Source: Streptomyces sp. NBC_01451 (GTDB lineage Bacteria > Actinomycetota > Actinomycetes > Streptomycetales > Streptomycetaceae). From it: a stretch of DNA of 64,000 nt. Both the position numbers and the translations under genes were made by a program. Shown piece after piece: positions 58,235 to 61,755 of the stretch; positions within the stretch are counted from its first letter, which is position 1, and each line of letters opens with the position of its first letter. Below the pieces are notes generated by a model. It was not told where the DNA came from. It searched no databases and saw only the letters and a list, made by a program, of their open reading frames with translations. The DNA lies in NCBI RefSeq assembly GCF_036227485.1, contig NZ_CP109479.1, forward strand, positions 2,604,001 to 2,668,000. The letters are read 5' to 3'.

Positions 58235-59602
58235 GTGGCCATCTCGGTCTTCGACCTGTTCTCGATCGGTATCGGCCCGTCCAGCTCCCACACGGTCGGC
58301 CCGATGCGCGCGGCCCGGCTGTTCGCGCGCCGACTGCGCAACGAGGAGGTCCTCGGGGCGGTGACGTCGGTCCGCGCGGAGCTGTACGGCTCCCTGGGCG
58401 CGACCGGACACGGCCACGGAACTCCCAAGGCGGTGCTGCTCGGCCTGGAGGGCGCCTCACCGCGCACGGTGGACGTGGAGGGCGCGGACACCCGGGTGGA
58501 ACAGATCAAGGAGTCGGGCCGGCTGAGGCTCCTCGACGACCATGAGATCGCCTTCTCCTTCGACGACGACCTGATCCTCCACCGCCGCAAGACACTCCCC
58601 TACCACGCGAACGGCATGACCCTGTGGGCGTACGACGCCTCGGGCGCCGAACTCCTCTCGAAGACGTACTACTCGGTGGGCGGCGGATTCGTCGTCGACG
58701 AGGACGCCGTCGGCGCCGACCGGATCAAGCTCGACGACACGGCCCTCAAGTACCCCTTCCGCACGGGCGACGAACTGCTGCGCCTGGCGAAGGAGACGGG
58801 CCTGTCGATCTCCGCGCTGATGCTGGAGAACGAGCGGGCCTGGCGCACCGAGGACGAGATCCGCTCCGGGCTGCTGGACATCTGGCGTGTGATGCAGACG
58901 TGCACGGCACGCGGCATGTCCCGCGAGGGCATCCTGCCGGGCGGGCTCCGGGTCCGCCGGCGCGCGGCCATGTCGGCACGTCAACTCCGCGCGGAGGGCG
59001 AGCCGTTGGCCCGCGCCATGGAGTGGATCACGCTGTACGCGATGGCGGTGAACGAGGAGAACGCGGCGGGCGGTCGGGTCGTGACGGCCCCGACGAACGG
59101 GGCCGCGGGCATCATTCCGGCGGTCCTGCACTACTACATCAACTTCGTGCCGGGCGCCGACGAGGAGGGCGTGGTCCGCTTCCTCCTCGCCGCAGGCGCG
59201 ATCGGCATGCTGTTCAAGGAGAACGCGTCCATCTCCGGCGCGGAGGTCGGCTGCCAGGGCGAGGTGGGCTCGGCCTGCTCGATGGCGGCGGGCGCACTGG
59301 CCGAGGTGCTCGGCGGCAGCCCCGAACAGGTCGAGAACGCGGCCGAGATCGGCATGGAACACAATCTCGGCCTGACCTGCGATCCGGTCGGCGGCCTGGT
59401 CCAGATCCCGTGCATCGAACGCAACGGCATGGCCGCGGTGAAGGCGGTCACGGCGGCCCGGATGGCGATGCGGGGGGACGGCTCGCACAAGGTGTCCCTG
59501 GACAAGGTCATCAAGACGATGAAGGAAACGGGCGCCGACATGAGCGTCAAGTACAAGGAGACGGCGCGGGGCGGGCTCGCGGTGAACATCATCGAGTGCT
59601 GA
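58235..59602 (+). CDS. sdaA: L-serine ammonia-lyase (serine deaminase, iron-sulfur type)
   Basis: 455 aa from a GTG at 58235 ([20 protein letters not shown]). It converts L-serine to pyruvate and ammonia using a 4Fe-4S cluster. The N-terminal beta domain has [20 protein letters not shown]; the alpha domain carries [15 protein letters not shown], the Cys-bearing [16 protein letters not shown] and [20 protein letters not shown], all expected cluster or substrate residues. Single-chain fused type. Its last 58 bp plus 3 more form the left copy of a 61-bp direct repeat that bounds the AbiE island. Confidence 0.97.
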
Positions 59603-59605
59603 GGC
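59545..59605. repeat. 61-bp direct repeat, left copy (attachment-site candidate, 3' end of sdaA)
   Basis: Starts CGTCAAGTACAAGGAG and ends at the sdaA stop plus GGC. It is identical over 61 bp to 61629-61689. Keeping the gene end intact while duplicating it is typical of site-specific integration into a gene's 3' end. Confidence 0.92.
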
Positions 59606-59815
59606 AACAGGCCCTAACCAGCACGTTCGTGTCTTTCGGTGCTGTCGGGGCCTTCCCTGCTTACTCGGCGGGAAGTCCCCGAAAACTCCCTGAGACAGGC
59701 TTGAAAGTCCCCGAAAAGTCCCCAGGAAATCCCATGGGCGGGAGCCTGACCTGGAGGTTCGTAACCTCTTCGATCGCTGTTCCGACTCGCCCTGACCGCC
59801 AACCGTCGCCAGGAT

Positions 59816-59862
59816 GTATCAAATCGATCCCCTGAAACCTCCAGAGGGGTACTATTCGATAC
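59816..59862 (+). promoter_or_regulatory. Promoter/operator of the AbiE-type operon
   Basis: GTATCAAAT (59816-59824) and ATTCGATAC (59854-59862) are inverted repeats with one mismatch, surrounding a -10-like TACTAT (59850-59855). The start codon at 59863 follows at once, so the transcript may be nearly leaderless. An inner CCCCT...AGGGG pair lies between. AbiEi proteins usually repress their own operon, which fits. Confidence 0.6.
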
Positions 59863-60477
59863 ATGAGTGCTGCGGAGAACCCGCGCTTGGAGCAGCGGCT
59901 GACCGGCCTCTCCCCCACGTTCACTACGGCGCAAGCACGTCAGGTCCTGCTCTCCCCTCGTGATCTGGCGTCCTTGGTCGCGGAGGGAGAGATAGACGAA
60001 CTGTCCCGAGGGGTCTACCGACGGGCAGACGCACCAGAGACCGCGCACGCGGATCTGCTGGCCGTGTGCGCACGGGCTCCTCGCGCCGTCGTGTGCGGCG
60101 AGTCCGCTCTGGCCCTGCACGAGCTGATCGACGACATCCCCGCAGCGGTACACATCGCCGTGCCGCGCGGTACACGCCGCCCCACGATCTCCTACCCGCC
60201 CACCGTAGTGGCGCAGTACGCCCCGACGACCTTCGCTCTCGGCGTCGAACGATTCGAAGCAGCCCCAGGAGAAACCATCCCCGTGTACAGCGCCGCCCGC
60301 AGCGTCGTCGACGCAATGCGCCACCGCAGCCGCATCGGCGAGACCCTCGCCCTGTCCGCGCTCGGCCGCTATCTGCGCCAGGGCGGACGCCGTAACATCG
60401 GCGAACTCCAGGACGTCGCGCGCGAGTTGGGTGCTCTCTCCGTTATCCGCCCTGCCGTTGAGGCGGTGCTCGCCTGA
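59863..60477 (+). CDS. Type IV toxin-antitoxin system antitoxin, AbiEi-like
   Basis: 204 aa, ATG at 59863 (MSAAENPRLEQRLTGLSPTF). An N-terminal winged-helix region (TFTTAQARQVLLSPRDLASL, then GEIDELSRGVYRRAD) is followed by the AbiEi C-terminal part (VCGESALALHELIDDIPAAV; HIAVPRGTRRPTISYPPTVV; YSAARSVVDAMRHRSRIGE). AbiEi both represses the operon and counteracts the toxin without forming a stable complex. Its TGA overlaps the toxin's ATG (TGATG). Phage-abortive function is known for relatives; here inferred. Confidence 0.88.
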   Translation: MSAAENPRLEQRLTGLSPTFTTAQARQVLLSPRDLASLVAEGEIDELSRGVYRRADAPETAHADLLAVCARAPRAVVCGESALALHELIDDIPAAVHIAVPRGTRRPTISYPPTVVAQYAPTTFALGVERFEAAPGETIPVYSAARSVVDAMRHRSRIGETLALSALGRYLRQGGRRNIGELQDVARELGALSVIRPAVEAVLA

Positions 60478-61376
60478 TGGCCAACCCCACTCGTGACACC
60501 ACCGCCGGCCGCGTCTACAACGACCTGCGCAACCTGGCTCGCCACGCCAGCCGGTCCACGGACGAGATCATGGTCGAGTACGTCCTCGAACGCTTCCTCT
60601 ACCGCCTGGCCGCGTCACCCCTCGGCCGCGAACACTTCGTACTCAAGGGCGGCCTGCTCCTCGCCCAGTTCGGCGCACGCCGGATGACCCGCGACATCGA
60701 CATCCTCGGCCGCTCTTTTCCAGGCGACGAAGCGGAGATCATTCGCAGGATCGCCGGCATCGCCGCCACCGAGATCGACGACGGCGTCGCATTCGATCCC
60801 GCGACGCTCAAGACCGTGCCCATCCGCGAGGAGGACGAGTACCACGGTCTGCGTCTGTCCATGGGCGCCTCCGTCGCCCGAGCACGACTCAAGCTCCAAC
60901 TTGATGTCAGCTTCGGCGATCCAGTCACTCCCGGCCCCCGGATCATCGACTACCCACAGCAGCTCACGACGGACAGCTTCCAGCTCCTCGGCTACCCACT
61001 CGCCACCGTCATCGCCGAGAAGCTCTCCACCGCCGTCTCACTCGGCGACCTCAACACCCGCGACCGCGACTACGGCGATCTCTACCGGCTGCTCACCCTC
61101 AACGACCTCGACGGCCAGGAACTCACCACCGCGCTGACCGCCACCGCCGCACACCGCGGCATCACCCTGAAACCCCTCAGCACCGCCATCAGCGACCTCG
61201 GCGAGCGCCGCCAGACCTCGTACACCGCCTGGCGCCGGAGACAGGGCCCCGCCGCGACCGGCTACCCCGAACGCTTCACCGACGTCGTCCGACAGGTCAC
61301 CGCCTTCGCCGACACACTTCTCAACGACGATGCCATCAGCCTCACTTGGAGTTCGGCGACCCTCGCGTGGTCATGA
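60477..61376 (+). CDS. Type IV toxin AbiEii-like nucleotidyltransferase
   Basis: 299 aa, ATG at 60477 within TGATG. The nucleotidyltransferase core is seen in FVLKGGLLLAQFGARRMTRD followed by IDIL, giving the GG...DxD catalytic pattern of AbiEii/MenT toxins, with further PQQLTTDSFQLLGYPLATVI AEK motif (Lys) and GDLYRLL. Relatives add nucleotides to tRNA acceptor ends and halt translation. Reading frame is complete, so a live toxin is possible. It forms the pair with the upstream antitoxin. Confidence 0.9.
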   Translation: MANPTRDTTAGRVYNDLRNLARHASRSTDEIMVEYVLERFLYRLAASPLGREHFVLKGGLLLAQFGARRMTRDIDILGRSFPGDEAEIIRRIAGIAATEIDDGVAFDPATLKTVPIREEDEYHGLRLSMGASVARARLKLQLDVSFGDPVTPGPRIIDYPQQLTTDSFQLLGYPLATVIAEKLSTAVSLGDLNTRDRDYGDLYRLLTLNDLDGQELTTALTATAAHRGITLKPLSTAISDLGERRQTSYTAWRRRQGPAATGYPERFTDVVRQVTAFADTLLNDDAISLTWSSATLAWS

Positions 61377-61755
61377 ACCAGACCCGGCCGACCGGCCAGG
61401 CTTCAAGGCGAACCCAAGACGTACGCATTACGAGTGCGGGGCTCACCGAAGTCATCGGGTGCCGCCCGAGCATCAACGACCCAACCCCACAGGCGTCTCA
61501 CGCAGCATCGAATACGTTGTAATCAGCCCCGACAAAAAGTCCCCAAAAAGTCCCTGACGTGATTCAAGGCAAGCCTGGGTATATCAAAACCGCAGGTCAA
61601 CCCCATGATCAGTAGCCGTCCACATGTACGTCAAGTACAAGGAGACGGCGCGGGGCGGGCTCGCGGTGAACATCATCGAGTGCTGAGGCGATACGCCCTG
61701 CCCGCCGACCGTCACGGAGCGAAACCCGATGATCGGTGAACGGTGAGGAGTCCTG
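61377..61755. other. 379-bp noncoding stretch with the right island boundary
   Basis: No credible gene. It contains AAAAAGTCCCC and AAAAAGTCCC in tandem (61534-61554), similar to the GAAAAGTCCCC repeats at the island's left inner edge, and the right 61-bp repeat copy. A vestigial reading ([20 protein letters not shown]) ends with the same residues as SdaA. The last 66 bp hold the ribosome site of the next gene. Confidence 0.7.
61629..61689. repeat. 61-bp direct repeat, right copy (attachment-site candidate)
   Basis: Identical to 59545-59605 for 61 bp, including the TGA stop of the sdaA end; flanking bases on both sides still show partial similarity. It encodes an orphan copy of the SdaA C-terminus. 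Confidence 0.92.

Follow-up and report, generated by a model that had tools for sequence, protein, structure and literature searches.

A 2.08-kb segment beside sdaA, the gene for an iron-sulfur L-serine dehydratase, is very probably a mobile element that has no integrase of its own. It lies in a stretch of 64,000 nucleotides from Streptomyces sp. NBC_01451 (contig NZ_CP109479.1, positions 2,604,001 to 2,668,000), which we call the window. We propose that the segment is a member of an integrative-element family that targets the final codons of sdaA, that it would take its integrase from a relative, and that its AbiE toxin-antitoxin pair would stabilise it. The attachment (att) sequence is duplicated around the insert, the arms beside it are shared with other islands, and relatives with an integrase occupy the same site. 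The site is used again and again with different cargo, and AbiE genes are less diverged than the host gene in most genome pairs.

The left att copy (attL core, 59545..59605, plus strand) consists of the last 58 bp of sdaA, whose stop codon ends at 59602, and the 3 bp that follow. As a preliminary description of this DNA had claimed, the same 61 bp recur exactly at 61629..61689, also on the plus strand (attR core). A looser repeat of 83 bp (59533-59615 and 61617-61699) is 92% identical. A search of the source genome (E<=0.001, best 40 of 64 candidates) returned these two copies, both at sdaA, and no third. Directly repeated att copies bracket the insert, and one of them completes sdaA, as in a site-specific integrative element. 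No tRNA or tmRNA was found in the 64-kb window.

Between the att copies lies a bicistronic operon with the gene layout of an AbiE type IV toxin-antitoxin system, whose toxicity is predicted from sequence. The AbiEi antitoxin (59863..60477, plus strand, 204 aa; AbiEi_4 PF13338, 8.4e-07; PADLOC AbiEi, 2.7e-96) is followed by the AbiEii toxin (60477..61376, plus strand, 299 aa; PF08843, 5.8e-35; PADLOC AbiEii, 1.8e-82), whose start overlaps the AbiEi stop by one base. Both genes look intact. The preliminary description had named such a pair and had noted that the insert holds no recombinase. Neither Pfam on the open reading frames of the insert nor a profile of the sdaA-site integrase family, which detects only relatives of that family, found one, and a crude motif, the sole check made for serine recombinases, found none of that class. 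An autonomous integrative and conjugative element (ICE) carries its own integrase, relaxase and transfer genes; the insert shows only AbiEi and AbiEii. Elements that keep their att ends and miss the genes for recombination and transfer are called decayed or cis-mobilizable. The window island is of this kind: its att ends are present, and genes for recombination and transfer were not found.

The att cores are accompanied by arms. The left (P') arm (59606..59740, plus strand), recognised from the sequence and by comparison with other islands, contains the direct repeats AAGTCCCCGAAAACTCCC at 59673 and AAGTCCCCGAAAAGTCCC at 59705 and a weaker copy of the AAGTCCCC type at 59716. The right (P) arm (61510..61628, plus strand), placed by arm comparison, contains AAGTCCCCAAAAAGTCCC at 61537 and GCAGGTCA at 61592. 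The first of these is the one repeat of the AAGTCCCC type on the right side; short direct repeats flank both att copies. Those of the left arm are probably integrase arm sites. A left flank of the same kind, about 160 bp long, lies 3' of the sdaA end in islands of other species that carry different cargo. Across 11 islands both arms are conserved over about 120-160 bp and then drop. A 20-base arm motif, searched with up to one mismatch, is present in 73 of 392 genomes of the genus, against 1 for the reversed control, and some of its sites lie away from sdaA.

A widespread family of mobile elements repeatedly uses the 3' end of sdaA for attachment. A pattern of the sdaA end followed by the arm matched 37 of 295 Streptomyces genomes and nothing when reversed; this count is a lower bound because the pattern missed an island that we know (in genome G244). 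In a species-level genome collection the same pattern matched 82 stretches, the best 80 of which were taken further. Hosts among the matches listed are Streptomyces, Kitasatospora, Streptantibioticus and a further member of the Streptomycetaceae. From the 74 genomes, counted by title, behind the 80 loci we tested 40 for att pairs. Half of them (20/40) carry at least two att copies on the same strand of a single contig, spaced by 1.07 to about 105 kb. Inserts at the site measure 1.0-105 kb and differ in cargo. Some elements appear stacked: G415 (contig C210) and G392 (C22) have three att copies in a row, and G231 (C1) has two junctions 54 kb apart. Three sdaA islands (L033 in G283, L199 in G414, L213 in G407) carry an RHS-like protein of 2.1-2.4 thousand residues, named by eye, with a second large protein adjoining.

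The preliminary description had named copies of the repeat far from sdaA as a finding that would speak against its reading. In the source genome the repeat was found only at sdaA. In three other genomes (G090, G190, G064) an att copy with an element arm has no sdaA directly before it. The copies in G190 and G064 may be inner copies of stacked elements. The one in G090 (C1:8008551, locus L037) is separated from the sdaA copy by 4.7 Mb and has an integrase-like frame of a different kind nearby. In other Streptomyces, elements with arms of this family also occupy the 3' end of the gene for RNase P RNA (L101, 7185-7590; L061, 975-1379). Rfam identified RNase P RNA (RF00010) in two of the three loci tested for this second target; tmRNA, which we had considered as the second target, is rejected, as ARAGORN found none in 8 loci. 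The source genome has a second copy of the arm motif at 7.05 Mb (G000 C1:7045623, locus L093), beside sequence that resembles the RNase P site. Rfam did not find RNase P RNA in that locus, and this copy is perhaps a displaced relic.

Other vehicles were considered and rejected. Phage records gave no match to the 61-bp repeat or to a 201-bp stretch that includes the left arm, and a degenerate pattern of the sdaA end gave none in viral contigs. The arm matched no plasmid record. The 61-bp repeat itself occurs in 38 plasmid records; the two that we translated contain pieces of sdaA genes and not attP sites.

Larger elements with an integrase occupy the same site, as the preliminary description had anticipated. 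A search with an S. canus integrase of 480 residues found a tyrosine integrase in 7 of the 20 genomes with att pairs. In these the match runs to the last residue of the query and reads through the distal att copy (residues 37-480 in G402, G392, G398, G422 and G400; 1-480 in G414; 128-480 in G397, where profile matches are split over two separate frames). Both proteins tested with Pfam, from G414 and G398, match PF00589, and both share their final 18 residues with SdaA. The last 39 residues of the S. canus integrase are 62% identical to SdaA of the source genome, and in integrase-type ends the arm repeat codes for VPEKS. Transfer genes were examined in one large element, that of G398 (104 kb). 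It encodes a relaxase (PF03432) and a type IV secretion system (T4SS) coupling protein (PF12696/PF02534); two further proteins of this element have no Pfam match.

These relatives bear on an alternative, that the sdaA end was merely duplicated as a segment by homologous or illegitimate recombination, with no site-specific recombinase involved. In favour of such a duplication, the repeat consists of coding sequence, and the searches of the insert gave no recombinase. The duplication is contradicted by the integrases at the site in 7 of 20 genomes and by the many species that share this breakpoint and these arms around different cargo. We regard it as highly improbable.

The evidence supports the preliminary description, which read the layout as that of an element that integrates at the 3' end of a gene and restores it. 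Under the reading that we prefer, a tyrosine integrase from a large relative would recombine the att core of the element with its identical counterpart at the end of sdaA. The last SdaA codons and the stop would then come from the element, and the displaced host end would become the right att copy. SdaA would remain intact after insertion because the element supplies its final codons and stop. The integrase gene of complete relatives ends in this core, which means that integration would swap near-identical C-terminal codons of SdaA and the integrase. We infer that recombination of this kind took place in the past and can still take place, with the integrase acting in trans. The AbiE pair beside the left att copy would most likely hold the element in place by addiction, perhaps with AbiEi binding near attL.

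Comparison of left and right att copies is consistent with an exchange of gene ends. In 22 att pairs, differences are scattered up to core position 56 and frequent (7 to 13 of 22) from position 57, which lies inside the stop codon. The left copy reads TAG and the right copy TGA in six pairs (G044, G032, G150, G408, SM10, G422), as expected if the element brings its own gene end and stop. The Legionella enzyme 4RQO aligns with full-length SdaA, including the C-terminal YKET..GGLAVN..EC. In the Legionella homologue the last cysteine is a ligand of the iron-sulfur cluster (PMC12647591; here and below, statements on published work refer to parts of the cited papers). This role of the cysteine would explain why the coding sequence is constant enough to be a target.

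Elements at this site often have a toxin-antitoxin pair in the same place. We examined the 65 junctions that have 1.5 kb or more of sequence downstream. At 29 of them AbiE or a PIN-type pair is matched within 3 kb of the left att copy: AbiE in 16, an antitoxin/PIN pair (A) in 14 and a VapB/PIN pair (B) in 2, some of them combined. Pfam assigns the PIN proteins of both pairs to PF01850 and antitoxin B to PF09957, and gives nothing for antitoxin A. Among first-placed antitoxin genes whose start lies in the match, shorter loci included, 20 of 25 start 220-300 bp from the start of the pattern. Several of the matches are fragments and many pairs are decayed. The other 36 junctions have none of the three pairs, and their first genes vary. 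At one of these junctions (L158) a Phd-like frame, which scores under the Pfam cut-off, precedes a PIN-like frame named by eye.

Most of the examined genomes of the genus lack the AbiE pair: an AbiEii orthologue (E<=1e-80, best six candidates per genome) occurs in at least 8 of 392. The preliminary description had named AbiE genes with the same flanks in all related genomes as a finding that would speak against an inserted element, and this is not what we see. Six of the eight orthologues stand beside an sdaA-type att site (G000, G244, G251, G007, G311, G002). At fourfold sites AbiE is less diverged than SdaA in 95 of 105 pairs from 15 genomes (medians 0.247 vs 0.367; 0.097 vs 0.423 in the extreme pair), where codon bias may affect SdaA and the pairs are not independent.

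Several observations weigh against the reading of the window island as an inserted element of this kind. Both att copies in the window are identical; hence the crossover cannot be placed. The preliminary description had proposed to look for strains with one copy of the repeat and no AbiE pair. Genomes with a single copy exist, such as G246, where the identical 61 bp occur a single time with no arm within 16 kb, and in G108 sdaA is directly followed by a GH25 gene that resembles the one of the window at 62224; but an empty site with the same right neighbour was not found. The joined junction without the island matched only the attR side of the source genome itself (392 genomes, best two candidates each), and it was not found among the sdaA loci collected in the analysis either. 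For the G423 island, the joined junction gave only the sdaA half in a set of 61 genomes (best ten candidates) from outside its near relatives. The gene right of attR, a frame of 128 aa at 61756-62142 with no Pfam match, was matched in 3 of the 392 genomes (best two candidates each); the right flank is therefore itself variable, and the pre-insertion state was not seen. Two of the eight AbiEii orthologues (G329, G025) have no att site within about 1.5 kb. The divergence of AbiE is no lower than that of SdaA in 10 of the 105 pairs, mostly pairs that include G244, and for the window and G244 the difference is small (0.377 vs 0.425). Finally, the stops are reversed in G414 (left TGA, right TAG), and G412 has TAG in both copies. 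In both genomes a second arm-like sequence comes after the right copy, and a further element may lie beyond it.

The window island shares the lack of an integrase with most short islands at the site. Among 20 short islands (1.0-14 kb), the family integrase or a relic of it is found only in G397, G044 and G261, the latter two being relics. The remaining 17, the window included, have none. A right arm like that of the window is present in 11 of the 17 (window, G404, G412, G407, G032, G150, G384, G411, G408, SM10, G283), and in the other six (G244, G057, G423, L162, G420, L178) the right-arm repeat was not seen beside the core. The right arm of the window has the layout of the integrase gene 3' end of complete elements and resembles the arms of other integrase-less islands. 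We compared these 11 arms, which were chosen for likeness, and that of G007, of which the part near the core is kept, with 8 integrase-type arms. On about 110 columns these 8 group together as one clade, with a FastTree support of 0.972. The 12 integrase-less arms, 11 of them chosen for likeness, agree with each other at a mean identity of 0.62 and the integrase-type arms at 0.63, against 0.49 between the groups. Most integrase-less arms cannot be read as integrase in its frame, the exceptions being G150, which reads VPEKSP and has no stop, and G384, where VPEESL is followed by a stop. From the arm clade, the identities and the frame reading, a common integrase-less ancestor is likely for several islands, including that of the window, and possible for all.

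A complete conjugative element may have inserted at sdaA once, lost its interior by a deletion that left the ends and AbiE, and been immobile ever since. We give this stranded copy close to an even chance. Decay is frequent at the site, as the two integrase relics and the broken AbiE genes of several islands attest, and the published decay of Streptomyces actinomycete ICEs (AICEs) to cargo between direct repeats offers a precedent (PMC9513070). The source genome shows no integrase of the sdaA type (the best match, at 39%, breaks off at residue 429 of 480), the six islands with no right-arm repeat beside the core would fit such a deletion, and the arms of G150 and G384 still read like an integrase end. 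Against it speaks the right arm of the window, which is nearer to integrase-less islands with other cargo than to the integrase-coding ends, themselves a clade.

Alternatively, small units without an integrase, with conserved ends of their own, may have spread like satellites by borrowing the integrase and conjugation of large elements. We hold this to be possible, at somewhat less than an even chance. The arm identities and the conservation of both arms, with a drop past about 120-160 bp, point this way. So do units of 1.02-2.08 kb that carry only AbiE or only an antitoxin/PIN pair, and the low divergence of AbiE in most pairs. AbiE is also carried on larger islands, however, which means that its low divergence is no proof of movement by small units, and the AbiE genes of the window and G244 are nearly as diverged as their SdaA. 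Only one pair was found in the islands of the window, G244, G423, G411, G384 and L162, and three of these six units (window, G411, G384) have the right-arm repeat. This explanation is weighed down because 11 of 12 ends were chosen for likeness, 6 of 17 islands show no right-arm repeat, and two arms fit the integrase frame, where the frame argument fails.

The boldest version of our proposal, an integrase-less member of an sdaA-site family, goes further, and we offer it tentatively, as rather more doubtful than probable. A long-lived lineage of integrase-less mini-elements, some of them consisting of a pair of att ends and a single toxin-antitoxin pair whose slot is interchangeable, would spread among Streptomyces through the integrase of conjugative relatives. 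Each integration of a complete relative would swap near-identical C-terminal codons, ending in the cluster-binding cysteine, between enzyme and integrase; the chemistry of the enzyme would thereby fix the target.

The principle is already known from ICEs, decayed AICEs and elements that target protein genes (PMC9513070, PMC4057263). Like T4SS-type actinobacterial ICEs, the G398 relative has a tyrosine integrase, att flanks, a relaxase and a VirD4/TraG coupling protein, whereas the window unit lacks these genes; the target of the sdaA family is the end of a metabolic gene, with an att site that overlaps the integrase 3' end. The vast majority of AICEs with a tyrosine integrase use tRNA 3' ends (Ghinet et al. 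2011, PMC3218068). Decayed AICEs share with the window island cargo between direct repeats and a partial or lost integrase; one published example lies in a protein-coding (glycosyltransferase) gene, and cis mobilisation was raised for such elements (PMC9513070). In contrast to the decayed AICEs described there, many integrase-less right ends at the sdaA site are alike across species, and a toxin-antitoxin pair often stands beside attL. In Streptomyces turgidiscabies, the integrative element PAISt likewise combines a tyrosine recombinase with a site at the 3' end of a protein-coding gene, bacA, and modular excision and eroded homologues are described for it; its site is the 8-bp palindrome TTCATGAA, whereas the sdaA elements have a repeat of up to 61 bp that codes for the C-terminus of an enzyme (PMC4057263). 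ICESsuHN105 of Streptococcus suis also has AbiE on an integrative element, together with SezAT; AbiE is reported to stabilise the element, and the antitoxins to bind at oriT and attL (PMC11062541). It is a large drug-resistance ICE, unlike the window island, where AbiE is the only cargo and lies beside attL. The literature matches listed, which mostly leave subscription papers outside their scope, contain no report of sdaA or a serine dehydratase gene as an attachment site, nor of rnpB. As far as these searches show, the following are new: the site, the tail that integrase and enzyme have in common, the slot for toxin-antitoxin pairs and the resemblance among ends that lack an integrase.

Further features of the window complete the picture. 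The sdaA gene (58235..59602, plus strand, 455 aa; PF03313/PF03315, SDH_alpha/SDH_beta) aligns with PDB 4RQO over residues 1-455, and its final codons fall inside the left att copy. An imperfect inverted repeat, read from the sequence, spans the AbiEi start (59814..59864, arms 59814-59832 and 59846-59864, no strand assigned). It has a similar counterpart in G244 and is a candidate AbiEi operator. Beyond the island, a terminator-like inverted repeat of 22 bp at 62892-62939 (95% complementary, 4-base spacer) follows the GH25 gene. A scan for promoters and terminators gave one promoter-like site (0.3 in shuffles) and one terminator-like site (1.2 in shuffles), both on the minus strand, and was not used.

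The finding describes a common insertion site in a protein gene of Streptomyces, one that searches for tRNA-associated islands would miss. At this one site, elements form a natural series from about 105 kb down to toxin-antitoxin units of 1 kb, which makes the retention of integrated DNA by toxin-antitoxin pairs testable. The concrete pair of integrase and att site could also become a tool for integration.

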